From Thermoanaerobaculia bacterium (lineage in GTDB: Bacteria; Acidobacteriota; Thermoanaerobaculia; UBA5066), in NCBI GenBank assembly GCA_022071945.1, contig JAJVIN010000029.1, positions 126,390 to 190,389 of the forward strand: 64,000 nucleotides of DNA, read 5' to 3'. The number at the start of each line of letters is the position of its first letter. The first letter of the stretch is position 1. The position numbers were made by a program, and so were the translations under genes. The notes beneath the pieces were generated by a model that was given only the letters and a program-made list of their open reading frames with translations, did no database searches and was not told where the DNA came from. Shown here piece by piece: positions 32,501 to 63,649 of this stretch.

Positions 32501-33646
32501 TCACCCCTCAGTCAGGCCGAATTCCGAAAGAACGGAGGCTTGATTCTCTCCGAGGGCAGGAGCCCGCGCCGGCGCGCGACGAAAAGGCGAAACAAAGCAA
32601 GCCGGTGCCTCGAGACGAGCTGCCCCCCCCGTCGGGACCTCCCTCAGTCGCCCGGTCTCGCGGAAGTACGGGGTGGTCAACACCTCCTCGAGGGATCGAA
32701 CAGGCGCGATCGGGAGCCCTTCCCGCTCTCCGAGCGCCACCCAGTGGCTCGCGGGCTCTTTCGACAGCTTCTCCTCGACGCGAAGGAAGGCGGGCTTCCC
32801 CGCCTCTCCCACCAGGAGTCCATCACCCGCCAGCTCCGGCAGGCCGAGGAGATCGACGAACCGGCTCCAGAACTTCGGCTCGAGCGCCCCGAGGGCGATC
32901 TCCGTGCCCTCCGCGCAGCGGTATCGCCGGTAACACGGACTCTCCCCCGCAAGAACCCGGGCCATGAACGGGGAACCCTTTGCCGAGGCCTCGGCGAGGT
33001 TCCAGGCCACGAACGGAAGGACAGACGCGGCCAGAGGCTGGTCGATGTGGAGTCCGCGGCCCGACTTCTGCCGGACGAGGAGGGCGCCGAGAATCGAGGA
33101 GACCGAGAGGAGGCCGGCCGCAACGTCCGCGAACTGGATGGGCGGTACCCCGCCGGGCGGTACCCCTTCGCTCCCGAGCTGACCGAGGAGCCCGGCCCCT
33201 GCCGTGAAATTCAGATCGTGGCCAACGTGGCGCGCCCAGGGCTCCGACGGGCCGTAGCTCGAGAGCGAGACCGTGATCAGACCGGGATTGACGGCACGGA
33301 GCTTCTCGAGGCCGAGGTTCCAGCCTTCCAGCGTGCCAGGCCGGAAACTCTCGACAAACACGTCCGCGTGCCTCGACAGCTTCAACACCGTTTCCTGGGA
33401 TGCCGGATCACGCAGGTCGAACGTGACCGACTCCACCCCGTGAAAGAACGTGTGGAACCCCACGCCCAAGCCATCGATGATCGGAGGGGTGGAGCGCATC
33501 GGGTCGCCACCTTCGGGATCCTCCACCTTGATCACCCGGGCGCCCAGATCGATCAGGCTCCGCACGAGGACCGCTCCCGGAAGCATGCGGGACACATCCA
33601 CCACGAGCGTCCCCGAAAGCGGCAGCGTCGAGGGGTCCACGCTCAC
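32501..33646 (-). CDS. CaiB/BaiF-family enzyme, AMACR (alpha-methylacyl-CoA racemase)-like
   Basis: 381 residues of the class III CoA-transferase fold. The segment RHVGHDLNFTAGAG has the histidine, and FADVAAG the aspartate, that match the His/Asp pair of alpha-methylacyl-CoA racemase. The family's usual GYD-type CoA-transferase motif is not seen, so a racemase or AMACR-like reaction is more likely than CoA transfer. Start ATG overlaps the acyl-CoA dehydrogenase stop (ATGA). Together they suggest branched-chain or methyl-branched acyl-CoA breakdown (inference). Confidence 0.85.
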   Translation of the reverse strand: MSVDPSTLPLSGTLVVDVSRMLPGAVLVRSLIDLGARVIKVEDPEGGDPMRSTPPIIDGLGVGFHTFFHGVESVTFDLRDPASQETVLKLSRHADVFVESFRPGTLEGWNLGLEKLRAVNPGLITVSLSSYGPSEPWARHVGHDLNFTAGAGLLGQLGSEGVPPGGVPPIQFADVAAGLLSVSSILGALLVRQKSGRGLHIDQPLAASVLPFVAWNLAEASAKGSPFMARVLAGESPCYRRYRCAEGTEIALGALEPKFWSRFVDLLGLPELAGDGLLVGEAGKPAFLRVEEKLSKEPASHWVALGEREGLPIAPVRSLEEVLTTPYFRETGRLREVPTGGAARLEAPACFVSPFRRAPARAPALGENQASVLSEFGLTEG

Positions 33647-35208
33647 CCCCCGATCCGCCTGAAGGCTTTCAGAAACCTCATCATCTCGTTCAGATTCGAC
33701 ACGGTGACCTTCCCTTCGAAGAACGCCGATTCCGCCCTGACGCGGCCCGTCTCGATCCCGAGATAGGTCTCCTCATCGGTGGAAACGACACAGGTCGGCT
33801 TCCCTTCCAGCCCCTCCGAGACGGCACAGCTCCCGTTCTCCACGACGACCGTCCACTTCGATCCGGAACGAAAGTCGAAATGGACCCGGGCGGACCACCC
33901 CTCCACCTTCTCGGGACGGAGGCGGGCTGGGATCGTGGCGAAAAGCTCCGCGATCGTGGCTGGGACCGTCACGGCGCCTTCGGCGGCGCGAGCGCGTCTC
34001 TGCTGCGAGACCGGAGCCTCGCCCGCATCGGAGGCCGGCTCCTCGGACGGGACCGAGAATGCGAGCCCGTCGATGTCGGTCTTCGCGATGATCTCGCGCA
34101 TGATCTCGCTCGTTCCCGCGACGATGGTGGAAACCCGGGCATCTCGGTAGAAGCGAGCCATCGGGTATTCCTCGGAGTATCCGAACCCACCGTAGAACTG
34201 CAAGCACTCGTCGACGATCCGCTTGTTCAACTCGGTCGCCAGGAGCTTCGACATCGACGACTCGCGAACCGCGGGCTGCCCCTCCGAAACGAGCCAGGCG
34301 GTGTGGTAGACGAGCTGGCGGGCCGCCGCAAGCTCGGTTGCCAGATCCGCGAGCCGGTGGCGCAGCGCCTGAAACGCGCTGAGGGGCTTGCCGAACGCCT
34401 TCCGGCTCGCCATGTAGCCGAGCGTTTCCTCCAGGGCGACGGCGGAGCCCCCTATCGCGATGGCCGCGCTGACGAGCCGCTCGAGGGCGAACGTCTCCAT
34501 CAAGTAGTAGAAGCCCCGGTTCTCGCCTCCGATGAGGTTCGAGATCGGGACCTTGAGGTCCTCGAAATGGAGCTCTCCCGTGTCCGAGGAATGCCACCCC
34601 ATCTTCCGGAGCTTGTTGGTCCTGATGCCAGGGGAAGAGGCGTCCGCGGCGATCAGACTGATGCCGCCCGCGCCCGCATCCGGAGCGGTCTTGGCGGCAA
34701 TGACGTAGAAGTCGCCGTGGACCCCGTTGGTGATCCAGGTCTTCGCGCCGTTGATCACCCAGCTCTCCCCTTCCCGGACGGCCGTCGTTCGAATGGCGGC
34801 GACGTCCGAGCCCGTGTCGGGCTCGGTGATGCAGATCGCCCCGACCTTGTCCCCCGTGATCGAGGGCTTGAGGAACTGGTCCTTCAGCGCGGCCGAGCCC
34901 CGCTTGTGGAGAGCCCCCGTCGCGATGAACTGCTGCACGCCGACCGCGGCACAGAAGCCCCCCATCCTGGAGCGCGGCAGTTCCTCCAGGAATGCCAGGG
35001 CGTAGAAAATGTCGGCTCCGCCCCCTCCAAGTTCTTCGGGAAAGAGGATCCCGAGGAGACCTTCCTCGCCCAGCCGCTTCCAGGCCGAACGCGGAATCCG
35101 CTGATTTCGCTCCCACTCATCGGCGTTGGGGGCGATCTCGGTCTCGACGAATTTCCGCACCTGCTGCCGGAACATCTCGTGCTGCTCGGAGAAATAGATC
35201 GATCGCAT
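33643..35208 (-). CDS. Acyl-CoA dehydrogenase fused to a C-terminal SCP2 sterol-carrier domain
   Basis: 521 residues. Residues about 1-385 are a full acyl-CoA dehydrogenase: AICITEPDTGSDVAAI, INGAKTWITNG, ERLVSAAIAIGG, YGGFGYSEEYPMARFYRDAR. At the MCAD catalytic-base position the sequence is VAGTSEIM (no Glu), whereas ALERLV supplies a glutamate at the isovaleryl/long-chain-ACAD position, so branched or long acyl chains are favoured. Residues about 415-521 form an SCP2-like lipid-binding domain (VHFDFRSGSKWTVVVENG, FFEGKVTVSNLNEMMRF). The fusion may tether hydrophobic acyl-CoA at the active site (inference). A ribosome site AGGGG precedes the ATG. Confidence 0.93.
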   Translation of the reverse strand: MRSIYFSEQHEMFRQQVRKFVETEIAPNADEWERNQRIPRSAWKRLGEEGLLGILFPEELGGGGADIFYALAFLEELPRSRMGGFCAAVGVQQFIATGALHKRGSAALKDQFLKPSITGDKVGAICITEPDTGSDVAAIRTTAVREGESWVINGAKTWITNGVHGDFYVIAAKTAPDAGAGGISLIAADASSPGIRTNKLRKMGWHSSDTGELHFEDLKVPISNLIGGENRGFYYLMETFALERLVSAAIAIGGSAVALEETLGYMASRKAFGKPLSAFQALRHRLADLATELAAARQLVYHTAWLVSEGQPAVRESSMSKLLATELNKRIVDECLQFYGGFGYSEEYPMARFYRDARVSTIVAGTSEIMREIIAKTDIDGLAFSVPSEEPASDAGEAPVSQQRRARAAEGAVTVPATIAELFATIPARLRPEKVEGWSARVHFDFRSGSKWTVVVENGSCAVSEGLEGKPTCVVSTDEETYLGIETGRVRAESAFFEGKVTVSNLNEMMRFLKAFRRIGG

Positions 35209-36026: not shown

Positions 36027-37229
36027 TCACTCCGCGCGTAGCGCGCTGACCGGGTCGAGGGCAGCCGCGCGGCGGGCGGGCAGGACCCCCGCGAGGATTC
36101 CGGCGAGAAGGCAAAACAGAGGGGCTCCCACCACCATCTCCGCCGGGGTCCTGAACGGCAGGCCAGGCACGAGGGCCTTCAGCCCTTCCGAGAGACCGAA
36201 GGCGAGCCCCACGCCGAGTACGCCGCCGGCGAGCGCCAGAAGGGCTGACTCCAGAAGGAAGAGGGCCACGATCTGCCCCTTCTGCCCCCCGAGAGCCAGA
36301 ATGAGTCCGATCTCGGACGTCCGCTCCCCCACCGAGATCCACATGATCGTGAGGATTCCGATGGCGCCGACGAGGAGCGAGATCCCGCCGATTCCGGCAA
36401 CGGCGACGCCCACGACCGACAGAACGCGATCGAGAACACCCAGCATTTCGGTTTGCGTCAGGATCGTGAAGTCCTCTTCACCGCGGTGCCGGTCGAGAAG
36501 AAGGCGACGAATCCCGGTGACGACCTCCTCGACGGGCACGCGCGGATCGAACTTGACGTCGATCCCGGCGAGCTCGTCGCGGGCAAACAGACGCTGCGCG
36601 GATGCGGTCGGAATGTAGACGACGTCATCCACGTCGAAGCCCAGCATGTTCCCCTTCGCTTCCATGACTCCCACGACGAGGAACCGCTGATCCGCGATCC
36701 GGAGCCTCTGTCCAAGCGGGCTGCCATCGAAGAGCTCCTCCGCGACCTTGGTCCCGATGGCGGCCACCTGCTGCGGCCGCTCGGGGTCCCCGGGCGGCAG
36801 GAACCTCCCCACCCTCGCCCGCCTCAGGCTCCAGACTTCCTGCATCTCCGCCGTCACTCCCATCACGAAGATGCTCCGCGCCCGGATCCCCGCCTGCACC
36901 CGCGCCATTCCGAACAGGACCGGAACGAGGGACTGCACTCCGGGCACGCGCCGCAGCGCCTCGGAATCCGCAATCGTCAACCGCCGGATGGTCCCCCCGG
37001 CCTGCGTCGGGAGCCCCGTCGTCCGGAACTTCCCGGGCTGGATGCTGATGATGTTCGTTCCGAACGAGGTGAACTCGGACATCACCGTGGCCCGCGTTCC
37101 TTCCCCCAGAGACGTCAGGAGAACGACCGAGGTGATCCCGACGACGATTCCCAGAACGCTCAAAAACGACCGGAGCCGGTGAGCGAGGATGGCCGAGCTC
37201 GCGAGCGAGAGGAGATCGAATCCCCGCAC
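36027..37229 (-). CDS. ABC transporter permease, MacB/FtsX-type (second)
   Basis: 400 residues. N-terminal helix and MacB periplasmic core (RLRSFLSVLGIVVGITSVVL, FTSFGTNIISIQPGKF), then three C-terminal helices of the FtsX domain (GGISLLVGAIGILTIMWISV, ERTSEIGLILALGGQKGQI) and an RRAAALDPVSALRAE ending. GTG start (37229), 3 bp after the first permease stop. It probably pairs with the other permease as a heterodimer, since neither contains an ATPase domain. Confidence 0.9.
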   Translation of the reverse strand: MRGFDLLSLASSAILAHRLRSFLSVLGIVVGITSVVLLTSLGEGTRATVMSEFTSFGTNIISIQPGKFRTTGLPTQAGGTIRRLTIADSEALRRVPGVQSLVPVLFGMARVQAGIRARSIFVMGVTAEMQEVWSLRRARVGRFLPPGDPERPQQVAAIGTKVAEELFDGSPLGQRLRIADQRFLVVGVMEAKGNMLGFDVDDVVYIPTASAQRLFARDELAGIDVKFDPRVPVEEVVTGIRRLLLDRHRGEEDFTILTQTEMLGVLDRVLSVVGVAVAGIGGISLLVGAIGILTIMWISVGERTSEIGLILALGGQKGQIVALFLLESALLALAGGVLGVGLAFGLSEGLKALVPGLPFRTPAEMVVGAPLFCLLAGILAGVLPARRAAALDPVSALRAE

Positions 37230-37232
37230 CTC

Positions 37233-38438
37233 TCACCTCCCCGAAAGGGCCGCGACCGGGTCGAGGCGGGAGGCGCGGCGCGCCGGCAAGAGACCGAAGA
37301 CGATTCCGACGGCAAGGGAGACACCGAGAGCCCCCCAGATCGCCCAGGGCGGGGGTTCGGCGGGGAAGGCCGGATAGAAAACCCTCAGCGTCCGGACCGC
37401 CAGAAAGCCCGCGACGAGGCCCGCGACCCCGCCCAGCGTCGACAGGATGGAGGCTTCCGCGAGGAACGCCCGCAGGACTTGCCCCGTTGTCGCCCCCAGG
37501 GCCTTCAGGAGCCCGATCTCCCTCACTCTTTCGGAGACCGAGACGAGCATGACGTTCATGACTCCGATCCCAGCGACGGTGAGCGAGATCGCGGTGATTC
37601 CGACGAGGGCCGCGGTGAGGACCCCGAGAATCTTCCCGAATCCGGCCAGGACGGCATCCTGGGTGAGGATGGTGACGTCGTCCTCGCCGGCGTGGCGCTC
37701 CCTGATCACTTCGATGATCCGGCTCTTGGCGGGCAGGATCTCCGCCTCCGAGCGCACCTCGAGAAGCGCGCGGAAGACGCCGCGCCGGTTGAACATCCTC
37801 AGGGCGTGGGCGGCCGGGACGTGAATGAGGTCGTCGAGCCTCAGACCGACCGTGATCCCGCGCGGGCCCGCGACACCAATGATCTGGAACCGCTCGGTGC
37901 CCACCCTGACGAATCGTCCAAGCGGGTTCTCCTTCGGGAAGAGCTCCTTCCAGGCGTCGTAACCCAGGACACAGACATGGGGCGGACGGTCGGACTGACC
38001 TCGGGGAAGGTACTGCCCCATGATGATCGGGACCTTCCGGACGGGCAGCATCTCCCAGGTCGTCCCGGCGATGATGACGTCCCGCGTGCGCCCCTCCGTT
38101 TCGGCCTTGACGGTACCCGTCACGATGGGCGCGGCGTATCGGACCGCGGGGACTCGCCTCTTGATCGCCTCGAGGTCCTCGAGGGTGAGGTCGTGAGCCA
38201 CCCCTCCGACGACCGGGAGCGAGCCCGTCGTCTCGGTCTTTCCGGGAAGGATGATGAGGAGGTTCGTCCCGAGGCTCTGGAACTCCTGCGTGACGAAGAG
38301 ACGGGCCCCCTCCGCCAGGCTCGTCAACATGATGACGGCGGCGACCCCGATCGCGACGCCAAGGAGGGAGAGCCCGGTCCGGAGCCTGTGTCCGCGAAGG
38401 GCCCCGAACGCGAACGTCACGAGGTCCGTGAAGCTCAC
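37233..38438 (-). CDS. ABC transporter permease, MacB/FtsX-type (first)
   Basis: 401 residues with the MacB layout: N-terminal helix (GHRLRTGLSLLGVAIGVAAV), periplasmic core (FQSLGTNLLIILPGK, RYAAPIVTGTV), and FtsX helices (AGIGVMNVMLVSVSERVREI, GLVAGFLAV) ending RRASRLDPVAALSGR. Start overlaps the ATPase stop by 4 bp (ATGA). Similar in length and plan to the second permease, but distinct in sequence. Confidence 0.9.
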   Translation of the reverse strand: MSFTDLVTFAFGALRGHRLRTGLSLLGVAIGVAAVIMLTSLAEGARLFVTQEFQSLGTNLLIILPGKTETTGSLPVVGGVAHDLTLEDLEAIKRRVPAVRYAAPIVTGTVKAETEGRTRDVIIAGTTWEMLPVRKVPIIMGQYLPRGQSDRPPHVCVLGYDAWKELFPKENPLGRFVRVGTERFQIIGVAGPRGITVGLRLDDLIHVPAAHALRMFNRRGVFRALLEVRSEAEILPAKSRIIEVIRERHAGEDDVTILTQDAVLAGFGKILGVLTAALVGITAISLTVAGIGVMNVMLVSVSERVREIGLLKALGATTGQVLRAFLAEASILSTLGGVAGLVAGFLAVRTLRVFYPAFPAEPPPWAIWGALGVSLAVGIVFGLLPARRASRLDPVAALSGR

Positions 38439-39103
38439 GCTCCCTCCGCGATCGCCCCATCACGGAGCCTGATGCACCGCCGGGCCCGCGAGCCGATCGC
38501 AGGGTCGTGAGTCACGACGATCACCGTCAGCCCCGAGGCGTTCATCTTCTCGATGAGAGCCACGACTTCCTTCCCCGAGGCGGCGTCGAGGTTGCCCGTG
38601 GGCTCGTCCGCCAGGAGGATCGAGGGCCCCATCACCACCGAGCGAGCGATGGCAACCCGCTGCCTCTCGCCTCCCGAGAGCTGATCGGGCCGGTGGTCCG
38701 CTCTCGCCTCCAGACCGACCGCGCGCAAGGCATCCAGAACGCGCCGGGCCCGCTCGGCGCGTGGGACGGCCGCGAAGATCATCGGAAGCTCGACATTACC
38801 GGCCGCCGAGAGCCTCGGAACGAGATGGAACGCCTGGAAGACGAACCCGATCTTCAGCTGCCGGATCCGGGCGAGCGACGCATCGGCAAGCCGGCCCGCG
38901 TCCTCGCCATCGAGCAGAAAGCTCCCCGACGTCGGCCGGTCGAGGCAGCCCAGGATGTGCAGGAGCGTCGACTTGCCCGATCCGGAAGGCCCCATCACCG
39001 AGACGTATTCCCCTTTCTCGATGACGAGGTCGATCCCGCGCAGGGCGTGCACGGGCCGCCCCCCGACCTCGTACTGCCGCGTCACGCCCCGGAGCTCGAT
39101 CAT
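38435..39103 (-). CDS. ABC transporter ATPase, MacB/LolD-type
   Basis: 222 residues from the ATG at 39103, chosen because it gives an ATGA overlap with the membrane-fusion gene and the usual [11 protein letters not shown] start. Walker [11 protein letters not shown]-loop [12 protein letters not shown], signature [13 protein letters not shown], Walker [13 protein letters not shown], His switch VVTHD. Energises the two downstream permeases. The MacB/LolD class is mechanotransmissive and does not take substrate through the membrane bilayer (family knowledge). Confidence 0.93.
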
Positions 39104-40260
39104 GGCTTCCCGGCTGGCTCGGCGGTCGCGCGGGCGCCGGCCTTCACCTCGGGCCGGTCGAGAGAAACGACGACGGCCTCTCCTTCCGAAAGGCCGCCGA
39201 GCACCTCGACCCACTCCCAGTTCATGAGCCCGGTCTTGACCACGCGACTCTGGAGCTGATCTCCGTCAAGCACGAGGACGCGAGTCCCCTCGATGAGGGC
39301 CGTCCGGGGGAAGCGCGGAACGGACTTCCGCGTGTCCAGGATGACCTCGACATCCGCGGAGGAGCCGGGTGAAAGGGAGCGGGCCAAGGCGGCATCCGAC
39401 AGCTCGACCTCGATCTCGAAGGTGCGGTTCTGTTCGACTCTGTCGAGGACGTAGGAGGCGACGCGGCTGATGGAGCCGGCGAAGGACTTGCCGGGGAAGG
39501 CATCGAAGGTCACCCGCACCGGCTGCCCCGCCTTCACGCGGCCGACGTCCGCCTCGTCGAGAGGAACGCTGATGTAGAGAGCGTCGGGGTCGAAGAGCTC
39601 GAGGACGGGCGGGATCGGGATCGCGGGTGGAGAGGGAGTCACCCACTCGCCGACCTCGGCCGAAATCTCGGCGACGACGCCGTCGAAGGGAGCGCGGAGC
39701 GTCATCTTCTCGAGAGAGACGCGGGCCGCGTCGAGGGCGGCGCGAGCCTCCCCGATGCGGGCGCCTGCCGCCTCGCAGGCGGCCCGGGCGCTATCCTTCC
39801 TGGCGGCGGCCTGATCCAGAAGACTGGCGGAAAGGACTTGGTCGTTCGCGAGGTTCTTCGAGCGGTCGAACTCGCGGCTCGCCAGGGTCGCGGCCGTGCA
39901 GGCCTCGCGCTCGGCGGCGAGCGCGGCCTGAAGAGTCCGCTCCCGGAGCGTCACCTGGGCCGCGAGATCCTCGCTCGCCAGACGAAGAAGGACATCCCCT
40001 TTCTTGACCCGCTGGCCTTTCTTTGCCGGGAGCTCGACGAGGCGTCCGCCAGTCTCCGGTGAGAGGGTCGCGCGCCGCCGCGACTTGACGGTCCCGGCCT
40101 TGCTGTTGGAGACCGTTTCCTCGACTTCCCCTCTTTCCACCCGGAAGACCGTGACCGGGACTGGGCGAGACCGGAAGAGAGTCAGCCGCAGAAGGAAGAC
40201 GACAGCGAAGACGGCCGCCACGGCGAGGAGCAGGCGGACCGGGCGCGGAAACGTCGTCAT
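39100..40260 (-). CDS. Periplasmic membrane-fusion (HlyD/MacA-like) subunit
   Basis: 386 residues from ATG 40260 with a GAGG site upstream; a GTG 18 bp further upstream is less likely. N-terminal anchor (VRLLLAVAAVFAVVFLLRL), lipoyl-like half (GRLVELPAKKGQRVKKGDVL), a long alpha-hairpin (LAAQVTLRERTLQAALAAER to ALDAARVSLEKMTL), lipoyl half (APFDGVVAEISAEVGEWV) and barrel domains. The hairpin should contact an outer-membrane TolC-like channel, which is not in this window. Promoter-proximal gene of the exporter operon; an antibiotic or lipoprotein/peptide export role is inference. Confidence 0.9.
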   Translation of the reverse strand: MTTFPRPVRLLLAVAAVFAVVFLLRLTLFRSRPVPVTVFRVERGEVEETVSNSKAGTVKSRRRATLSPETGGRLVELPAKKGQRVKKGDVLLRLASEDLAAQVTLRERTLQAALAAEREACTAATLASREFDRSKNLANDQVLSASLLDQAAARKDSARAACEAAGARIGEARAALDAARVSLEKMTLRAPFDGVVAEISAEVGEWVTPSPPAIPIPPVLELFDPDALYISVPLDEADVGRVKAGQPVRVTFDAFPGKSFAGSISRVASYVLDRVEQNRTFEIEVELSDAALARSLSPGSSADVEVILDTRKSVPRFPRTALIEGTRVLVLDGDQLQSRVVKTGLMNWEWVEVLGGLSEGEAVVVSLDRPEVKAGARATAEPAGKP

Positions 40261-40280
40261 GGAAGAGGCCCTCGACACGA

Positions 40281-40286: not shown

Positions 40287-40429
40287 GACTCAGCGGGGGA
40301 AGCGCCGGTTACACCCACCCCGCGGGGCCGGGAGAAGGAGAAGCGGCGGAGAAGGACGCACCGGGGAGGCCCGATTGGAAGCCGGACCGTCTATCCTTGG
40401 GTCATCGTTCCTGAAAGGTGAGACCGACG

Positions 40430-43400
40430 ATGACGCGACGTGCCGTCCTCTCGAGTTCGTTCCTGGCGGCCTTCTTCCTCTCTTGCGGCCTGCCGCTCTT
40501 GGGCCAGAGGTTTCCGGAGAAGGATCTCCCCCCCGTTCTGAAACCCTGGGTTCCCTGGGTTCTCGACGAGAAGAAGGATGCGGTGTGTCCGGCTGTCGAC
40601 GGCTCGGCCGTCTGCCTCTGGCCCGGTCAGCTGGACCTGACGGTCGGCGGCTCCGGAGGGACCTTTTCGTTCGAGGTCCATCTGGACCGGCCGCTCTTCG
40701 TCCCGCTGCCCGGGGATGAGAAGGTCTGGCCGCAGGACGTCAAGGCCGCCGGAGCGGCCGTCCCCGTCGTCGCTCGGGACGGCCACCCCGCCGTCTCGTT
40801 GCCGGCCGGCGACCACCGGATCGAGGGCCGCCTCATCTGGAAGGAGCTGCCCGATTCCCTTCAGGTTCCCCAGCAGGTCGCTCTCGTCGGCCTCTCCATC
40901 GGCGCCAAGAAGATCGGGTTCCCCAGGCGAGAAGAGAACGGGCTCCTCCTTTTGCGAGAAGCCTCCGACGGCGAAGTCTCGGCCGACGACATCCGCTTGA
41001 AGGTCTTTCGAAGACTGTCCGACGGCGTGCCGATGTCGGTCGAGACGCGAATCGAGTTCGAGGTCTCGGGCAAGGCCCGAGAAGTGAGGCTCGATGGAGT
41101 CACCCTCCCAACAGGTGTTCCCGTGTCGGTCGGCGGGGACCTCCCGGCACGTCTCGACAAGGGGATCCTGCTCGTCCAGGTCCGCTCCGGCCGGTTCAAG
41201 ATCACCGTCCTCGAGCGAATCGACGGGCCCGTCACCTCCTTCAAGAGAAAACCCTCGCAGGAACCGTGGCCTTTCGAAGAGGTGTGGCTCTTTTCACCGA
41301 ACGAGGACATCCGGCAGATCGAGCTCAGCGGCGCCAACGCGGTCGATCCCGTAAGGGCCGAGGTCCCGGGAGAGTGGCAGAAGCTCGCCGCCTTCCAGAT
41401 GACGCTCGAGTCCGAGCTCCAGGTGAAGGAGACACGTCGAGGCAAGCCCGAGGCCGCTCCCGACCAGGTCGCCCTTTCACGAGCCTACTGGCTCGACCTG
41501 GACGGCAAGAACTTCACGATCAGAGACACGTTCAAGGGTTCGCTCGGGAGAACCTCTCGGTTCAACGCCATCCCCCCCACCGAGCTGGGCCGGGCCTCGA
41601 GCGATGGGGCAGACCAACTCATCACCCTGGACCCTTCGGGAGGTGCGAGGGGATTCGAGGTGCGAAGAACCGCCGTTTCGATCGAGACGGACTCGAGACT
41701 TCCCAGGAGCGGCAGGATCCCGGCGGTGGGGTGGAGCGTGAACGTGCAGTCCCTCTCCGCCACTCTCTACTTGCCACCCGGCTGGACCCTCATCGCGGCC
41801 CCCGGCGTCGACCGTGTGCCGGGCGGCTGGTTCGGCCGCTTCACCCTCTTCAGCTTCTTCGTCGTCCTCCTCATCACGATCGCGACCGCCAAGCTCTTCG
41901 GCCCGAAGTGGGGGGGCGTCGCTCTCTTGACCCTCGTGGTGTGCCACGGCGAGCCCGGCGCCCCGGAGTTCATCTGGTTGAGTCTTCTGGGCGCCCTGGC
42001 GCTGCTCGGGCTCGTCCCCGCCGGCAAGGCCCGGGTCGGGGTCCAGATCTGGTGGTGGCTCTCGGCCATCGTCCTGGCCGTCATCGCGATTCCGTTCTTC
42101 ATCAAGCAGATCCGCGTGGGGCTCTTCCCTCAGGCCGGACCCGCATGGGTGAGCTCGGCAAGAGGGGGCGGCGGATTCCTGGGCGGGATGGCGAAGGACG
42201 CCGCGCCACCGCCTCCGAGCTCGGCTCCCGAGTCGCCAGCGATGGAGGAACAAGCCCCGGCTCCGCAGGACATGGTGGCGAGCGCTCCCGATCAGAAGGC
42301 CCGCCAGGAGGTCCAGGCGCGCAAGCCCGTCGCGAAGAAGAAGGCGTACACGTCCTACGACGCCTACCAGCAGGATCCGCACTCGGTCATCCAGACCGGG
42401 ACGGGGGTTCCGAACTGGAGCTGGCGGGCCGAGTCCCTGCAATGGACCGGCCCCGTCAGCTCGGACCACACGATGCGGCTCGTCCTGCTCTCTCCGGCGG
42501 CCAACCTTCTCCTGGCGCTCGTCAGGGTCCTCCTCGTCGCGCTCTTTGCGGCGAGGCTCCTGAACGATGATCGGACGCGGCCGCTGTGGAAGAGGTCCGG
42601 GGCCCCACTCCCGGGCGCACCCGTCCTCGCATCCGTCGCCTTCGTTTTCCTGGTTGCCGCGCCCGCGCGGGCGGAAACGCCCCCGGTGCCGAACGTGAAC
42701 CAGCAGGAGTCGAACGCGGCGCCGAATCAGGAGGTCACGATCCCGGCTCCCGGCTCCTGGGTTCTCGACGAGATGAGAGATCGCCTCACGAGGGACCCGG
42801 AGTGCGCCCCGGAATGCACGTCGACCGCGTGGGCCGTCCTCTCGCTGAAGGGGGGCACGCTCACCCTGGAGTTCGAGGTGCACGCGGCCGTGGCAGCCGG
42901 GTGGCCGATCCCCGGTCCCGCGAACTCCTGGGTCCCCGCGCGAGTGAGCCTGGCCGGCAAGCCCTCCGGAGCCCTCGTTCGAGGAGAGAACGGCTTCCTC
43001 TTCTTGCGGGTTCCGCAAGGAGTCCACCGGGTCACGGTCGAGGGCCCCCTGCCGCCGCGCGACAGCCTTGTTCTCCAGTTCGCGAGCAAGCCGAGGCGGA
43101 TTCAGGGCTCGGCGGATGGCTGGCAGGTCGACGGCATCCGGGAGGACGGAACGACCGAAGGCTCCGTGCAGTTGACGCGGAAGCTCGAGCAGGCCGGGAG
43201 CACCGCCATCCAGGGTGGAGGTCTCTACGAGCCCTGGCTCGAGGTGGTCCGAGTGCTCGATATCGGCGTCACGTGGAAGGTGACGACGATCGTGAGACGG
43301 ATCTCGCCGGCGGGGGCCCCCGTCCTCGTCAAGGTCCCGGTCTTGCCCGGAATGCTCATCACGGACAGCGACCGTCCCGTGAAGGACGGAGAGATCGAGG

Positions 43401-44737
43401 TCAGCCTCGGCCGGGACGACCTGGAAACGCAGGTCAACGCCTCGCTCGAGATCGGAGACAAACCCGTCATTCTGAAGGCCGCCGAGGGGAAGTCCTTCTC
43501 GGAAATCTGGACCCTGCGCTGCGGCAACGTCTGGCAGTGCGAGGTGAAGGGGAGCGTCCCGCCCGTCGAGCACCAGCGCGATGGGTATCTCTCCCGGGAA
43601 TACAGACCGTGGCCCGGGGAGTCGGTGGAAGTCCACTTCAGAAAGCCAGCCGGCGCGCCGGGCCAGGCCCTCACCATCGACGAAGCCTCTCTGAATGTCG
43701 TTCCCGGCATCCGGCTCCAGGACGCCATCCTGACGTTTCGCGTCCGCTCGAGCCGCGCCGGCCCGCTCGTCGTGACCCTTCCAGAAGGAGCGGACGTGAG
43801 GTCCGTGAAAGCGAATGGGAGCGACCGGGCAGTCCGTCCGGAGGGGCAGAAGCTGACGCTCTCTGTGGCGCCCGGAAGCCAGTCGTTCGAGATCATGTGG
43901 CGCCAGCAGGGCGGGATGTCGCTCTTTTACCGCTCTCCCGCGGTCGCCATCGGGAGCTCGGCCGTCAATGCATCCCTCGATGTCACGATTCCACCGGACC
44001 GCTGGCTCCTTTACGCGCGGGGGCCGAAGTGGGGCCCCGCGATCCTCTTCTGGGGATACCTCCTGTTCGTCTCGCTCGCCGCCCTCATGCTGGGAAAGGT
44101 GAAGGCGAGCCCGCTCTCGAGCCTCGAGTGGTTCGTCCTGGGCCTTGGCATGGCGCAGCTTCCCGCCCCCGTACTCCTGATCGTGGCCGGCTGGTTCCTG
44201 GCCCTCGGGTGGCGGCGCCAGAGGACCGACCTGAAGCCGGCGCTCTTCGATCTCAGGCAGCTCCTGCTTCTGGGCTGGACCCTGGTCTTCTTCGGCTGCC
44301 TGTACGGCGCCGTCCACCAGGGTCTCCTGCTCCGGCCAGACATGCAGGTCGCGGGCAACCAGAGCAGCGAGACCCTCTTGAAGTGGTACGCCGACCGGAT
44401 CGATGGAACGATGCCTCGGGCCTGGGTGGCAAGCGCTCCCATGTGGATGTACCGGATCCTGATGCTGGCCTGGGCGCTCTGGCTTGCGATCAGGCTGATC
44501 CGGTGGCTCGGCTGGGCGTGGGAGTCGTGGACCGAGGGCGGCTCTTGGAAGAGGCTCCGCCCCCTGCCCCCGCCGGCTGACGAGAAGCCGGCAAAGGCCG
44601 TGCCACACGTTGCGACGCCGCACACTGCCGCCCCGCACATTGCAGCCCCGCCCCCGCCCCCACCGCCCGCCCCATCGGCGCCCCCGCCTCCGCCTCCGCC
44701 GAAGCCGGAGACCGAGGACGATCCCTTCGGAAGTTGA
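40430..44737 (+). CDS. Large membrane protein with internal duplication, uncharacterised (1435 aa)
   Basis: I do not recognise a named family. The ATG at 40430 has a GGTGA ribosome site and begins a signal peptide (MTRRAVLSSSFLAAFFLSCG). The protein contains two related halves. The first, from about residue 36, opens KPWVPWVLDEKKDAVCP; the second, from about 770, opens PAPGSWVLDEMRDRLTRDP. Each has a cysteine pair, a GGxxxFEVHxxxxxPxPG strand, then beta-rich sequence and membrane helices. Near 470-550 and 690-705 are hydrophobic helices; a Pro/Ala/Lys stretch (about 580-650, ending with SYDAYQQDPHSVIQTG) separates the halves. A second, internal signal-like segment (VLASVAFVFLVAAPARAE, about 732) precedes the second half, as if two ancestral genes fused. 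The last 50 residues are Pro-rich (APPPPPPPAPSAPPPPPPP). Two small secreted-protein genes follow 7 and 69 bp downstream. Confidence 0.85.
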   Translation: MTRRAVLSSSFLAAFFLSCGLPLLGQRFPEKDLPPVLKPWVPWVLDEKKDAVCPAVDGSAVCLWPGQLDLTVGGSGGTFSFEVHLDRPLFVPLPGDEKVWPQDVKAAGAAVPVVARDGHPAVSLPAGDHRIEGRLIWKELPDSLQVPQQVALVGLSIGAKKIGFPRREENGLLLLREASDGEVSADDIRLKVFRRLSDGVPMSVETRIEFEVSGKAREVRLDGVTLPTGVPVSVGGDLPARLDKGILLVQVRSGRFKITVLERIDGPVTSFKRKPSQEPWPFEEVWLFSPNEDIRQIELSGANAVDPVRAEVPGEWQKLAAFQMTLESELQVKETRRGKPEAAPDQVALSRAYWLDLDGKNFTIRDTFKGSLGRTSRFNAIPPTELGRASSDGADQLITLDPSGGARGFEVRRTAVSIETDSRLPRSGRIPAVGWSVNVQSLSATLYLPPGWTLIAAPGVDRVPGGWFGRFTLFSFFVVLLITIATAKLFGPKWGGVALLTLVVCHGEPGAPEFIWLSLLGALALLGLVPAGKARVGVQIWWWLSAIVLAVIAIPFFIKQIRVGLFPQAGPAWVSSARGGGGFLGGMAKDAAPPPPSSAPESPAMEEQAPAPQDMVASAPDQKARQEVQARKPVAKKKAYTSYDAYQQDPHSVIQTGTGVPNWSWRAESLQWTGPVSSDHTMRLVLLSPAANLLLALVRVLLVALFAARLLNDDRTRPLWKRSGAPLPGAPVLASVAFVFLVAAPARAETPPVPNVNQQESNAAPNQEVTIPAPGSWVLDEMRDRLTRDPECAPECTSTAWAVLSLKGGTLTLEFEVHAAVAAGWPIPGPANSWVPARVSLAGKPSGALVRGENGFLFLRVPQGVHRVTVEGPLPPRDSLVLQFASKPRRIQGSADGWQVDGIREDGTTEGSVQLTRKLEQAGSTAIQGGGLYEPWLEVVRVLDIGVTWKVTTIVRRISPAGAPVLVKVPVLPGMLITDSDRPVKDGEIEVSLGRDDLETQVNASLEIGDKPVILKAAEGKSFSEIWTLRCGNVWQCEVKGSVPPVEHQRDGYLSREYRPWPGESVEVHFRKPAGAPGQALTIDEASLNVVPGIRLQDAILTFRVRSSRAGPLVVTLPEGADVRSVKANGSDRAVRPEGQKLTLSVAPGSQSFEIMWRQQGGMSLFYRSPAVAIGSSAVNASLDVTIPPDRWLLYARGPKWGPAILFWGYLLFVSLAALMLGKVKASPLSSLEWFVLGLGMAQLPAPVLLIVAGWFLALGWRRQRTDLKPALFDLRQLLLLGWTLVFFGCLYGAVHQGLLLRPDMQVAGNQSSETLLKWYADRIDGTMPRAWVASAPMWMYRILMLAWALWLAIRLIRWLGWAWESWTEGGSWKRLRPLPPPADEKPAKAVPHVATPHTAAPHIAAPPPPPPPAPSAPPPPPPPKPETEDDPFGS

Positions 44738-44744
44738 GGACGAA

Positions 44745-45356
44745 ATGAAGCAGCACAGAGCCTTCCTGACGATCGGCGTTTTCCTCTCGGCAACCCTCGT
44801 ATTGGCTTGTTCCGGTTCGCCCGCTCCCAAGAGTGCTCCGGGCGCCGCGTCCTCCCGGCCCCTCCGCGTCGTTCTGGTCGAGGCGACCGGCCCCGGACCC
44901 GAGCTCGAGGCGTTTCTGGACCGCTTCCAGGCAGAGGCGATCGACTCTGGACGGCTTTCGATCGTGGATGCCCGGCTCTCGGGCGCCACATTCACGGGCC
45001 TCTCCACGGCGGGAGCGGAGACTTCGCGGACGGAGTTCCAAAGGACGTTCCCGGGCGACCTTCTTCTTTCGGTCTCCCTTCCCCAGTGCGATCCGAAGGT
45101 CTCGAGCTTCTCTTATCAGGACACGACGGTCGACGGTTACCGGGTCCAGCGGACGATCTCCTCCGCGTCGATCTCGTGCACGGCCCAGCTCGAAACCTTT
45201 CGCCTCCCGGATGGACAGAAGCCCGAGACCCACACAATCAAGGCCGAGACCCCCTACACGAACCCTGGGGCGGAGGGTCAACAGGACGAACCCATGATCA
45301 AGGCCGCGAGAGAAGCCGGGAGGAAGGCCGCCCGGCAGCTCGCCAAGAAGCTCTGA
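44745..45356 (+). CDS. Putative lipoprotein of unknown function
   Basis: 203 residues, 7 bp after the large duplicated membrane protein with a GAGGA ribosome site, so surely co-transcribed. The N-terminus (MKQHRAFLTIGVFLSATLVLAC) is a lipoprotein signal with cysteine 22. Beta-strands and helices about 35-200 contain SFSYQDTTVDGYRVQRTISS and SISCTAQLETF with Cys residues, and it ends with a basic helix (REAGRKAARQLAKKL). No family recognised; the basic C-terminal helix could bind nucleic acid, lipid or a partner (inference). Confidence 0.8.
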   Translation: MKQHRAFLTIGVFLSATLVLACSGSPAPKSAPGAASSRPLRVVLVEATGPGPELEAFLDRFQAEAIDSGRLSIVDARLSGATFTGLSTAGAETSRTEFQRTFPGDLLLSVSLPQCDPKVSSFSYQDTTVDGYRVQRTISSASISCTAQLETFRLPDGQKPETHTIKAETPYTNPGAEGQQDEPMIKAAREAGRKAARQLAKKL

Positions 45357-46167: not shown

Positions 46168-48924
46168 ATGAATCAAAGACGGCTCACTCTCCTCTTCGGG
46201 ATTCTTCTCGGAGTCCTCATGGTGTCGCTCCTCCCGGCACAGCCGGCGCTCGCGGTATCCGCCGGGGACAAGGATCATCGGGACGCTCATGACGACTGTG
46301 ATGCGGCCAAGGGCATCACGGTGATGAGGGACCAGGTGGAGTGGTGGGCCCGCGAGGGCGGGGCTTCGGCGCTGGCGGCCGAGTTCTGGGTGAGTCCCGA
46401 GGCGGAACTCCAGACACCGGCCCGGCTCGACTGGACGCTCGTGATCACGAAGCTCGACCGCACCGTGATCGACCGCATCACCGGTTCAACGATCCTCAGA
46501 GACGGCAAGGGATTCGCCCTGGTCAACTTCGAGGGCAGGACATCAGACGGCAAGCCGCTCGAGGCGGGGCTCTACGTCTACCGCTACGAGGTTCCCGGGT
46601 TCGAGTCGTCCGGAGGCTTCCTGAGGGTTTACGCATCGGACGAGCAACCGGAGCCGAAACGGAACGACGAATACGTGCCTGATGCGAGCACTCTCAACCC
46701 GAGCGTTCCCTACAACTTCTACTTCGGCACGCCGCACTCGCACACGATCTTCTCGGATGGAGGAATCCCCGTTGCGACCTGCAACGGTTCTATCTCTTCC
46801 CCGCATACCGGGGCGAAGCCCGCGGACGCCTACGCCTACGCGAAAACGAGTGGTGGAGTCGACTGGGCAGCCATCAACGAGCACAACCACCTCATCGACG
46901 ATGCGTGCGGCTCAGGGTGCACGACGGCAACTCTGCGGGCGCGTTACCAGGAAGGTCTGACGGCGGCTGCCTCGGCGACGACCTCGACCTTCGTTGGCCT
47001 CTACGGCATGGAGTGGGGCGTCATCAGCGGCGGCGGGCACATCGCCCTGTACGACATCACGAAGATCTTCGGCTGGGAAGCCTACGCGGACGTCACGACG
47101 CCGAAGTCCGACTACCTCACGCTCTACACGACGGCGAACAACGCGGCCTACCAGGGCCCGGCCGGAGCGGCCGCGGGTTTCTGCCACCCGGGGACGAGTG
47201 ACTTCGGGAGCTTCGCGAAGAACGCGGCCGGGGTCAACGTGATGACGGGCCTCGCCGTCATCTCCGGGCCATCCGATTCCAAGCTGACGACGTTCGCCGA
47301 CGCCGGCTCCCGCTACTCGGGCCCGAAGCGGGGCGGCACCGACATGTACCAGTACGCCCTGCAGCGCGGCTGGAAGGTCGGCCCCGAGGCTCACCAGGAC
47401 AACCACTGCTGGAACTACGGCACGTCCACGCGCAACCGGACGGTCGTCCTCGCGACCTCCCTCTCCCGGGCCTCCGTCGTCTCGGCTCTGAAGGCCCGCC
47501 GCTTCTACGCTTCCTCGGACCTCAACGCCCAGATGTTCTTCGGCACCGCCGACTACACCAAGGTCATGGGCCAGACCTTCACGGTCTCGACTTCGACCGT
47601 GAACCTGCTCCTCTGGGTGAAGGATCCGGATGGCGCGACGGTTTCTTCCGTGACGCTGTATCAGGGCAATCCGGCCGCGGGCTCCGGCTCCCCCTCGACG
47701 GTGGCGATGACGAACGCGGGGAACGGCACCTACACGGCCACGGTCACCCTCCCGGCCACGGGCGAGAACTACTTCTACACCTACGCGGCCCTCTCGAGCG
47801 GCGCGGAGCTCTTCTCGGCCCCGATGTGGATCAGCCGTTCCGGCGGCTGCTCCGACACCACGGCCCCGGCGGCCTCCATCACGGCTCCCTCCGCGACCAC
47901 GGTCACCGGGACGGTCACCGTCAGCGCGACGGCCACCGACAACGTCGGAGTCACGGGGATGACCCTGAAGATCGACGGCGCGACGGTCGCGACCTCGACC
48001 TCCGGTTCCGTCTCGTACTCCTGGAACACGTCGTCCCTGACGGCTGGCTCTTCTCACTCGATCACCGTGACGGCCACGGACGCCTGCGGGAACGTCAGCC
48101 CCACCGCCACGAAGACCGTCACGATCGGCTCGACCGGCTGCTCCGACACCACCGCCCCATCGGCCACCATCACCGCTCCCACGGCCAGCAGCGTGACCGG
48201 GACCGTGACGGTCTCCGCCACCGGCTCCGACAACGTGGGCGTCACCGGAATGACCCTCAAGATCGACGGAACGACGGTCGCCAGCTCGACCTCCGGCTCC
48301 GTCTCGTACTCCTGGAACACCTCGTCACTCGCGGCGGGGTCTTCTCACTCGATCACGGCCACCTCGACGGATGCCTGCGGGAACGTCAGCCCGACGGCCA
48401 CGAAGACGGTCACCATCGGGACGACGCCCACGAACCCGATCGTCAACCCGGGGTTCGAGTCGGGCGTTCCGCCCACCCCCTGGGTCGAGACCGGGAGCTA
48501 CGAGCAGATCACGGGCACGACGACGTCCTCGGCCAACACCTCCGTGTCCCCGCACGGCGGGACCAAGATGGCGTACATGGCGGGGTATGACAGCGCCGAC
48601 GACTACCTTTACCAGAACTTCACGGTCCCCAACACGACCTCGAACGTGAACCTCTCGTTCTGGTACCGGATCGTCACGACGGATGGCACGACGACGGCGT
48701 ACGACTCCCTGTACCTCGACGTTTACAACTCGACGGGGACGACGCGTCTCGGCACGCTCGCGACGTTCTCCAACAAGAACGCGAACTCCGGCTGGACGCA
48801 GAAGACGGCCCTGTCCCTGAACAGCTGGAAGGGGCAGACGATCCGTTTGAGGCTCCACGCCACGAGCGACTCATCCAACCCGACGGACTTCTTCGTCGAC
48901 GATTTCAACGTGACGATGCCGTAA
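46168..48924 (+). CDS. Secreted PHP-domain protein with Ig-like repeats
   Basis: 918 residues with an N-terminal signal (LLFGILLGVLMVSLLPAQPALA). The main domain is a PHP/CehA-type metallohydrolase: TPHSHTIFSDGG (His190, His192, Asp197), WAAINEHNHLIDD and FCHPGTSDFG, residues usual for a di- or trinuclear metal site. Residues about 495-565 form a beta-sandwich, then two nearly identical Ig-like repeats (97 residues each), and the last about 150 residues form a jelly-roll, carbohydrate-binding-like domain (FESGVPPTPWVETGSYEQI). Function probably phosphoesterase or related hydrolase outside the cell (inference from the fold). It has its own sigma-54-like promoter and a terminator; the next gene is another large surface protein. 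Confidence 0.85.
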   Translation: MNQRRLTLLFGILLGVLMVSLLPAQPALAVSAGDKDHRDAHDDCDAAKGITVMRDQVEWWAREGGASALAAEFWVSPEAELQTPARLDWTLVITKLDRTVIDRITGSTILRDGKGFALVNFEGRTSDGKPLEAGLYVYRYEVPGFESSGGFLRVYASDEQPEPKRNDEYVPDASTLNPSVPYNFYFGTPHSHTIFSDGGIPVATCNGSISSPHTGAKPADAYAYAKTSGGVDWAAINEHNHLIDDACGSGCTTATLRARYQEGLTAAASATTSTFVGLYGMEWGVISGGGHIALYDITKIFGWEAYADVTTPKSDYLTLYTTANNAAYQGPAGAAAGFCHPGTSDFGSFAKNAAGVNVMTGLAVISGPSDSKLTTFADAGSRYSGPKRGGTDMYQYALQRGWKVGPEAHQDNHCWNYGTSTRNRTVVLATSLSRASVVSALKARRFYASSDLNAQMFFGTADYTKVMGQTFTVSTSTVNLLLWVKDPDGATVSSVTLYQGNPAAGSGSPSTVAMTNAGNGTYTATVTLPATGENYFYTYAALSSGAELFSAPMWISRSGGCSDTTAPAASITAPSATTVTGTVTVSATATDNVGVTGMTLKIDGATVATSTSGSVSYSWNTSSLTAGSSHSITVTATDACGNVSPTATKTVTIGSTGCSDTTAPSATITAPTASSVTGTVTVSATGSDNVGVTGMTLKIDGTTVASSTSGSVSYSWNTSSLAAGSSHSITATSTDACGNVSPTATKTVTIGTTPTNPIVNPGFESGVPPTPWVETGSYEQITGTTTSSANTSVSPHGGTKMAYMAGYDSADDYLYQNFTVPNTTSNVNLSFWYRIVTTDGTTTAYDSLYLDVYNSTGTTRLGTLATFSNKNANSGWTQKTALSLNSWKGQTIRLRLHATSDSSNPTDFFVDDFNVTMP
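47845..48426 (+). repeat. Two tandem 291-bp in-frame repeats (Ig-like domains)
   Basis: Two adjacent copies, period 291 bp, first near 47845 and second near 48136, both opening GCSDTTAP and sharing DNVGVTGMTLKIDG and STSGSVSYSWNTSSL. They encode the Ig-like modules of the PHP-domain protein and are a natural site for recombination-driven length change. Confidence 0.9.
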
Positions 48925-60676: not shown

Positions 60677-61717
60677 TTACCGGAGCGACTCCATGATCGC
60701 GTCGAGGGCCGCCTTCGGCGGGCGGACCTTCTCTAGAGGGATCTGGTGAAGCGGCTCGTCGGTCATGCCGAGAACGTCCGGCAGGCTCGGCTGCTCCGGC
60801 GCGAGGTAGAGGATCCCGGTCAGGAATTCCTTCTTCTGCCGGCTCTCGTGGAGCACGGCCAGGGCTTGCTCCCGATTCGTCGGGTCGTAGTCGCGCCCCA
60901 CGGAGTGGAAGCGCACGACGCTGCCGTCGGGGAAGGTCACATCCTTGACCTCTCCAGGGGGAATTTCCGCGAGGGTGTCCTCGAAGAACGGAACAAAGCC
61001 GATCTCGTGGAGCGGCTCCTCGTGGTCCTTGGCGTACTTGTAGCTCTTGGTGGAGCCCTCGTGGTCGTTGAAGGTCACACAGGGCGAGATGACGTCGAGG
61101 AGAGCCGTTCCCTTGTGGGCGATTGCGGCCTGCAGGATCGCCTGGAGCTGCTTCATGTCGCCGGAGAACGAGCGAGCGACGAAGGCGCAGCCGAGTTCGA
61201 CGGCGAGGGAGCAAAGATCAACGGCCGGCAGGTCGTTGACCGTGCCGTCTTTCAGCGTGGCGCCAAGATCCGCCGTGGCCGAGAACTGCCCCTTGGTGAG
61301 CCCGTAGACGCCGTTGTTCTCGACGATGTAGATGAGGGGCACGTTGCGCCGCAAGAGGTGCATGAACTGGCCGATCCCGATCGAGGCGGTATCGCCGTCT
61401 CCTGACACCCCGATCCCGACCAGGGACCGGTTCGCCAGGATGGCGCCCGTCGCCAGCGAGGGCATCCGGCCATGGACTCCATTGAAGCCCCAGGAGCGGT
61501 TCAGGAAGTAGTTCGGTGTCTTGGAGGAGCAGCCGATCCCCGAGAACTTCGCAACCCGGTGGGGTTCGACACCCATCTCGTAGAAGGCCGTGACGATCTG
61601 CTTCGTGATGACGTCGTGGCCGCAGCCGAGACAGAGGGTCGATTTCGCGCCCTCGTAGTCGCTCTTGGCGAGGCCGAGACGGTTGGTCTTGGGGGCGGAA
61701 GGCACCGTAGCGCTCAT
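60677..61717 (-). CDS. korB: 2-oxoacid:ferredoxin oxidoreductase, beta subunit (KorB-like)
   Basis: 346 residues. Beta subunit with a TPP site: GDGDTASIGIGQ and IVENNGVYGLTKGQFSA, plus the CLGCGHDVI cysteines for a [4Fe-4S] cluster and GIGCSSKTPNYF. With KorA it oxidises 2-oxoglutarate (or a related 2-oxoacid) to an acyl-CoA with reduction of ferredoxin. 3 bp after korA, with an AGGAGAGG ribosome site in the korA end. Confidence 0.94.
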   Translation of the reverse strand: MSATVPSAPKTNRLGLAKSDYEGAKSTLCLGCGHDVITKQIVTAFYEMGVEPHRVAKFSGIGCSSKTPNYFLNRSWGFNGVHGRMPSLATGAILANRSLVGIGVSGDGDTASIGIGQFMHLLRRNVPLIYIVENNGVYGLTKGQFSATADLGATLKDGTVNDLPAVDLCSLAVELGCAFVARSFSGDMKQLQAILQAAIAHKGTALLDVISPCVTFNDHEGSTKSYKYAKDHEEPLHEIGFVPFFEDTLAEIPPGEVKDVTFPDGSVVRFHSVGRDYDPTNREQALAVLHESRQKKEFLTGILYLAPEQPSLPDVLGMTDEPLHQIPLEKVRPPKAALDAIMESLR

Positions 61718-61720
61718 CGT

Positions 61721-63586: not shown

Positions 63587-63649
63587 CAGCACCCTCCCTG
63601 CCGATCGTGATGTGTGGTTCGAACACTCTTGCTGAATCGAACGAGGCGG

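Follow-up and report, generated by a model that had tools for sequence, protein, structure and literature searches.

A 1435-residue reading frame in the 64,000-nucleotide stretch of Thermoanaerobaculia DNA that we analysed (the window) raises the question of what a large membrane protein with two seemingly related halves and a signal-like segment in its interior does in the bacterial envelope. The frame is intact on the forward strand, from an ATG at 40430 to a stop at 44737 (an in-frame GTG at 40418, if used as the start, would add four residues), and the gene is present as a single copy in its genome. An initial annotation, made by a model from the letters of the DNA, recognised no described function for the protein, and database searches agree: no Pfam or NCBIfam model and no PDB chain matches it by sequence. 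Pfam and PDB searches with 59 homologues of each half returned nothing convincing, an NCBIfam search for the C-terminal half added nothing, and a literature search found no description of the family. Weak Pfam matches to Hepar_II_III_C (best E 0.0049) and Phage_TTP_12 (0.0076) involved one or two members each and were dismissed.

Two homologous halves in a single chain

We find that the protein is an internal tandem duplication with colinear halves. In each half, a signal peptide leads into a periplasmic beta ectodomain that holds a cysteine pair; four transmembrane (TM) helices follow, then a hairpin or the segment that stands in for it, and lastly TM helix five (Table 1). Comparing the halves by BLASTP recovers only 65 residues, at E 0.067, so that reading a single sequence and its motifs is in itself no proof of duplication. 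Profile comparison is more sensitive here: hhalign aligns the two half profiles over 472-491 columns at 98.4-98.6% probability (E about 1e-15 (6e-15)), while the reversed control and ten column-shuffled controls reach at most 11%. Domain by domain the match is again colinear (D1-D1 97.8%, D2-D2 67%, D3-D3 34%). Profiles also relate the third domain of half 2 to the first domain (85-90%), which points to repeats within the ectodomain itself. An HMM of the C-terminal half matches the N-terminal half of the same reading frame in more than 20 genomes (E 1e-7 to 1e-3), and an HMM of the N-terminal half matches the C-terminal half in two genomes. For the TM blocks and tails, compared alone between the halves, no sequence similarity is detectable and only the layout is alike. 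AlphaFold models (pLDDT 83.6 for the N-terminal and 84.0 for the C-terminal half) assign both halves the same fold class and TM layout.

Two related halves had been proposed in the initial annotation on the strength of three shared features, and these fared differently in the family. The cysteine pairs proved universal among the homologues (Table 1). A strand read as GGxxxFEVH lies in register in the profile alignment, but its letters are special to this sequence, the family having GxFxQxW in half 1 and LxxxxEV/I in half 2. The common WVLDE start is the weakest of the three: half 2 of the family reads L-[DEN]-[EQ]-L instead, and since the profile alignment does not reach this stretch, the halves probably share the word by coincidence. 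The poor BLASTP score and the non-corresponding WVLDE words are what would be expected if the similarity were fortuitous or the halves came from different families, but the 491-column profile match at 98.4%, set against its controls, and the common fold class and TM layout refute that explanation, to which we assign a negligible probability.

Table 1. Coordinates of the protein and its features in the window (sidedness of membrane segments is predicted)
Feature	Residues	Position	Strand	Basis
Whole gene, duplicated envelope protein		40430..44737	+	ORF; homologues (~1300-1620 aa) from several phyla
N-terminal signal peptide	1-26	40430..40507	+	hydropathy; [AVSTGIL]xA after hydrophobic core in 68/73 homologues
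Half 1 periplasmic beta ectodomain	27-465	40508..41824	+	AlphaFold model
Half 1 cysteine pair	C53/C62	40586..40615	+	both Cys in 74/74 homologues
Half 1 four-helix TM block	~466-567	41825..42130	+	hydropathy; model helices
Variable Pro/Ala/Gln-rich linker	~568-648	42131..42373	+	low pLDDT; unconserved in alignment
Half 1 segment with invariant TGxGxPxW and GxV	~649-679	42374..42466	+	invariant columns, 59 homologues
Half 1 fifth TM helix	680-713	42467..42568	+	hydropathy; model helix
Cytoplasmic positive loop, n-region of internal signal	714-722	42569..42595	+	net positive in 90/91 homologues
Internal signal peptide; predicted cut after A748 (between ARA and E)	723-748	42596..42673	+	column make-up; strict motif in 57/74
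Half 2 periplasmic beta ectodomain	749-1200	42674..44029	+	AlphaFold model
Half 2 cysteine pair	C792/C796	42803..42817	+	both Cys in 74/74 homologues
Half 2 four-helix TM block	~1201-1300	44030..44329	+	model helices
Half 2 PDMQxAGNGSxxxxLxWYxDR segment and beta hairpin	~1301-1337	44330..44440	+	model strands 671-692
Half 2 fifth TM helix	~1338-1368	44441..44533	+	model helix 693-723
Pro-rich C-terminal tail, predicted cytoplasmic		44534..44734	+	sequence; poorly conserved, unaligned in relatives

Distribution of the family and persistence of the fusion

A scan of genome contigs with the single sequence found no relatives, and an alignment query was required. Relatives were detected first within the same class and next across the phylum; full-length relatives share 30-55% identity with the protein, and its whole length is conserved. 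Scanning the genome contigs with the alignment gave at least 550 matches, the best 80 of which were listed. Among these 80 are members from Acidobacteriota/Holophagales, Myxococcota, Gammaproteobacteria (Methylobacter, Thiomargarita, Oceanisphaera and Zobellella) and Desulfobacterota, with one example each from Nitrospirota and Elusimicrobia. Profile searches matched 114 of 379 Myxococcota genomes (nearly a third), 28 of 398 Pseudomonadota genomes and 13 of 396 Acidobacteriota genomes, counts that include a few fragments too short for judgement. Carriers that can be cultured include Methylobacter tundripaludum, Oceanisphaera arctica and Nannocystis exedens. One further match, in genome G045, was a chance hit to proline-rich sequence. 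In a tree of the family, the acidobacterial members split into separate groups, and the group of the 1435-residue protein is deep. The family thus spans several bacterial phyla and is large, while having no Pfam or NCBIfam model, assigned function or solved structure.

No phage carrier of the family was found, and one plasmid carrier was, in Azoarcus. On this plasmid (pAZKH, 738 kb, mobilizable), the homologue overlaps the next gene, which encodes an isoaspartyl peptidase/L-asparaginase, by 4 bases (L116 15936-16853).

The initial annotation had called for a search for genomes in which the halves are separate genes. No such genome was found: leaving aside genes interrupted at contig ends or by a frameshift, all relatives are fused, and neither the best 80 of the at least 550 matches nor the genomes from the profile searches contain a convincing separate-half gene. 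Apparent split genes in G980, G938, G910, G701, G1176 and G1045 were rejected, as the pieces sit at contig edges, and one in the draft genome G404 reflects a frameshift inside a domain. Because the halves are fused in every untruncated relative across several phyla, the duplication is old, and a recent joining of unrelated genes is excluded as its origin. The suggestion that the gene joins two exported proteins survives, in the sense that the halves are homologous and each stands behind its own signal peptide.

Two minor observations concern these contigs. In G980, G938, G910 and G1176, contigs repeatedly end within the low-complexity stretch that surrounds the internal signal peptide, which mimics split genes. 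In G404, the gene downstream of the homologue (L035 2961-4118) may, by eye, encode a protein of the thiopeptide/lantibiotic dehydratase C-terminal type.

The internal signal peptide and its putative cleavage site

The signal-like segment at residues ~723-748 was already noted in the initial annotation, and the family alignment makes a stronger case for it than was claimed, since the segment ends in a conserved signal-peptidase-I-like site. This consensus, which had been missed, suggests cleavage. Across 88 homologues, P743 is kept in 73 and A748 in 64, position 746 is A/V/S/T/G, 747 is variable and 749 is E/D/Q. Read column by column, this is the pattern of a signal peptide: a Leu-rich core, Pro at about -6, a small residue at -3, a variable -2, Ala at -1 and an acidic +1. 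With the positive loop before it, the segment thus presents an n-region, a hydrophobic core and an AxA-type site that, as judged by motif, are conserved across relatives.

The specificity of the site was gauged by motif counts, in which homologues share ancestry and are not independent. A strict motif, [AVSTG]xA[DEQ], marks the internal segment of 57 of the 74 non-redundant homologues (about a fifth lack it); behind ten further TM segments of these proteins, periplasm-facing ones among them, it is seen in 0-7 of 74. A relaxed motif is found at the internal segment in 73 of 74, but two of the other TM segments show it in 67-70 of 74 homologues, and about half of random 16-mers contain it; being common by chance and elsewhere, it is unconvincing alone. 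N-terminal signals carry the strict motif in only 15 of 73 homologues owing to a different +1 residue, so the acidic +1 is peculiar to the internal site and not general to signal peptides. That the site has persisted in several phyla speaks for its being functional, and signal peptidase I most likely cuts after A748.

We consider it somewhat more likely than not that the gene encodes an inner-membrane precursor that signal peptidase I cuts into two related, non-catalytic membrane subunits, which pair and hold or present periplasmic substrates or partners. This reading combines computed elements (duplication, conserved fusion, cleavage consensus and fold class) with steps that we infer (cleavage, pairing and the scaffold role). 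Signal peptides and charges would place the ectodomains in the periplasm and the loop at 714-722 and the tail in the cytoplasm. Under this model, an old tandem duplication would have produced an inner-membrane precursor in which either half has all the parts of an exported protein. The second signal peptide, inside the chain, would enter from the cytoplasmic side, and signal peptidase I would cleave it on the C-terminal side of A748, so that one message would yield two homologous membrane proteins at a 1:1 ratio. The two subunits would then assemble as a pair on the outer face of the inner membrane and there hold or present periplasmic substrates or partner proteins.

A precedent for such processing is FbcH, the cytochrome b-c1 precursor of Bradyrhizobium: a polytopic bacterial membrane precursor in which signal peptidase I cleaves at an internal signal peptide, releasing two subunits of one complex. 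The products of FbcH are unrelated respiratory subunits, whereas those of the 1435-residue protein would be homologous copies. If the internal signal is cut, the protein would be a rare bacterial membrane precursor of two homologous subunits, with a simple way of fixing their ratio at 1:1. What is new in any case is an unnamed, widespread duplicated family that is fused in all untruncated relatives and has a conserved internal signal-peptidase site.

The internal segment could instead be an ordinary sixth TM helix, leaving one uncut chain that forms an internal pseudo-dimer, with the AxA site a relic or out of reach of the peptidase. Topology also works for such a chain, and retention of the fusion in every untruncated genome would be natural if the link matters. 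A relic, however, would be expected to erode across phyla, yet the small -3/-1 residues and the proline persist while the core varies, and other TM segments of the same proteins lack the site. We regard the uncut chain as possible but rather unlikely.

Fold, genomic context and possible function

We asked what the ectodomains resemble. Among single domains, the N-terminal beta domain of M1 aminopeptidases gives the firmest match: half 2 superposes on it with Z 13.1 and an rmsd of 2.9 over 149 residues and half 1 (residues 184-335) with VIA Z 9.4 and an rmsd of 3.5 over 137 aa. In the model, half 2 residues 1078-1336, a stretch that runs across the four TM helices, are similar to the M1 N-domain and to a portion of Ost1. 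The half 2 hairpin joins the last ectodomain sheet, and its strands (model 671-692) align with the M1-N-like domain. The thermolysin-like catalytic domain and the HExxH motif of M1 aminopeptidases (PepN, LTA4H, ERAP) are missing from the family, and here the N-terminal-type beta domain is TM-anchored, its sheet completed by a hairpin after TM4. An identity as an M1 aminopeptidase was rejected: HExxH is absent from all 88 homologues examined, and there is no catalytic domain or Pfam peptidase match. Integrin and pilin entries in the Foldseek results, with TM-scores of at most 0.15, were taken as generic beta matches. CreD-type inner-membrane proteins likewise have a large periplasmic beta domain followed by a TM helix bundle; the family differs in having no Pfam match to CreD, and we know of no duplication or internal signal in CreD.

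M1-N and Ost1-type domains are non-catalytic in the proteins where they are known. The fold match ties the family to such domains and favours a scaffold or substrate-presenting role, though a shared fold shows no function. The putative envelope scaffold of the initial annotation agrees with this prediction of M1-N-like and Ost1-like beta domains and with the missing HExxH motif.

An enzymatic function, for example as a membrane-bound transferase or hydrolase at the periplasmic face, would place the invariant membrane-proximal segments near an active site. TGPGxPxW in half 1 and PDMQxAGNGSxxxxLxWYxDR in half 2 indeed carry the polar residues with the strongest conservation, and they lie between TM4 and TM5 close to the membrane; the half 2 segment has invariant N, S, D and W across 59 homologues, and the half 1 segment takes the family form TGPGxPxW ... 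GPV. The latter lies outside the N-half model, so its role as counterpart of the half 2 hairpin is suggested by position, and a separate profile match between it and the half 2 tail was not significant. No catalytic motif was recognised, no enzyme family matches and the best fold matches are to non-catalytic domains, all of which make an enzyme improbable.

Both halves match Ost1/ribophorin I in fold, and for the C-terminal half it is the best Foldseek match (E 9e-10, prob 1.00). This raises the notion that the protein serves as a cofactor subunit, comparable to eukaryotic Ost1, in a machine for glycosylation or protein sorting that resembles oligosaccharyltransferase or the exosortase system. 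Across 49 acidobacterial genomes, however, the family does not co-occur with STT3 (7 of 18 carriers against 19 of 31 non-carriers) or with exosortase (at most 10 of 18 against at least 19 of 31), exosortase is absent from the genome of the 1435-residue gene itself, and no glycosylation genes recur beside family members. We consider such a cofactor very doubtful.

Similarly low is the probability that the family is a prokaryotic relative of the scaffold Ost1/ribophorin I, making a matched pair of homologous Ost1-like subunits from one signal-peptidase-cut precursor. Like Ost1, the family may carry M1-N-like beta domains in tandem over the membrane, ahead of TM sequence, and the C-terminal half reaches VIA Z 14.8 (range 13-15) against Ost1, but with an rmsd of ~22 over ~319 residues, so that the domain arrangement differs and the whole chains superpose poorly. 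Ost1, moreover, is a single copy with one TM helix and no internal signal peptide, and the family has no detectable sequence similarity to it. The ribophorin I family model (presumably PF04597) matched none of 59 members per half at E <= 0.01. A 2016 search for prokaryotic relatives of non-catalytic oligosaccharyltransferase subunits reported no promising candidates (PMC4973528).

For the favoured model of a cleaved, paired scaffold, gene context names no partner: no conserved neighbourhood or operon of the family was found. In some Methylococcales, but not elsewhere, mpl lies upstream of the homologue; a downstream OsmF-like gene is confined to the Oceanisphaera/Zobellella/Oceanimonas group. 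In the window, the reverse strand upstream of the gene (36027-40278) encodes a divergent MacA-like adaptor, a LolD/MacB-like ATPase and two MacB-type permeases, an ABC system of the efflux or lipoprotein/bacteriocin-export type; no such MacAB-like transporter recurs beside the genes of relatives.

Directly after the gene, a small lipoprotein-like reading frame (~44736-45356, forward strand; signal with LACS, no Pfam match) is possibly co-transcribed with it. Farther along the same strand, 46168-48924 encodes a 918-residue protein with bacterial Ig-like Big_7/Big_13 domains and weak similarity to the exoglucanase CbhB. On the reverse strand, the window also encodes an acyl-CoA dehydrogenase that carries a fused SCP2 sterol-carrier domain (33643-35208) and 2-oxoacid:ferredoxin oxidoreductase subunits, beta and a fused gamma/alpha (60677-63592).
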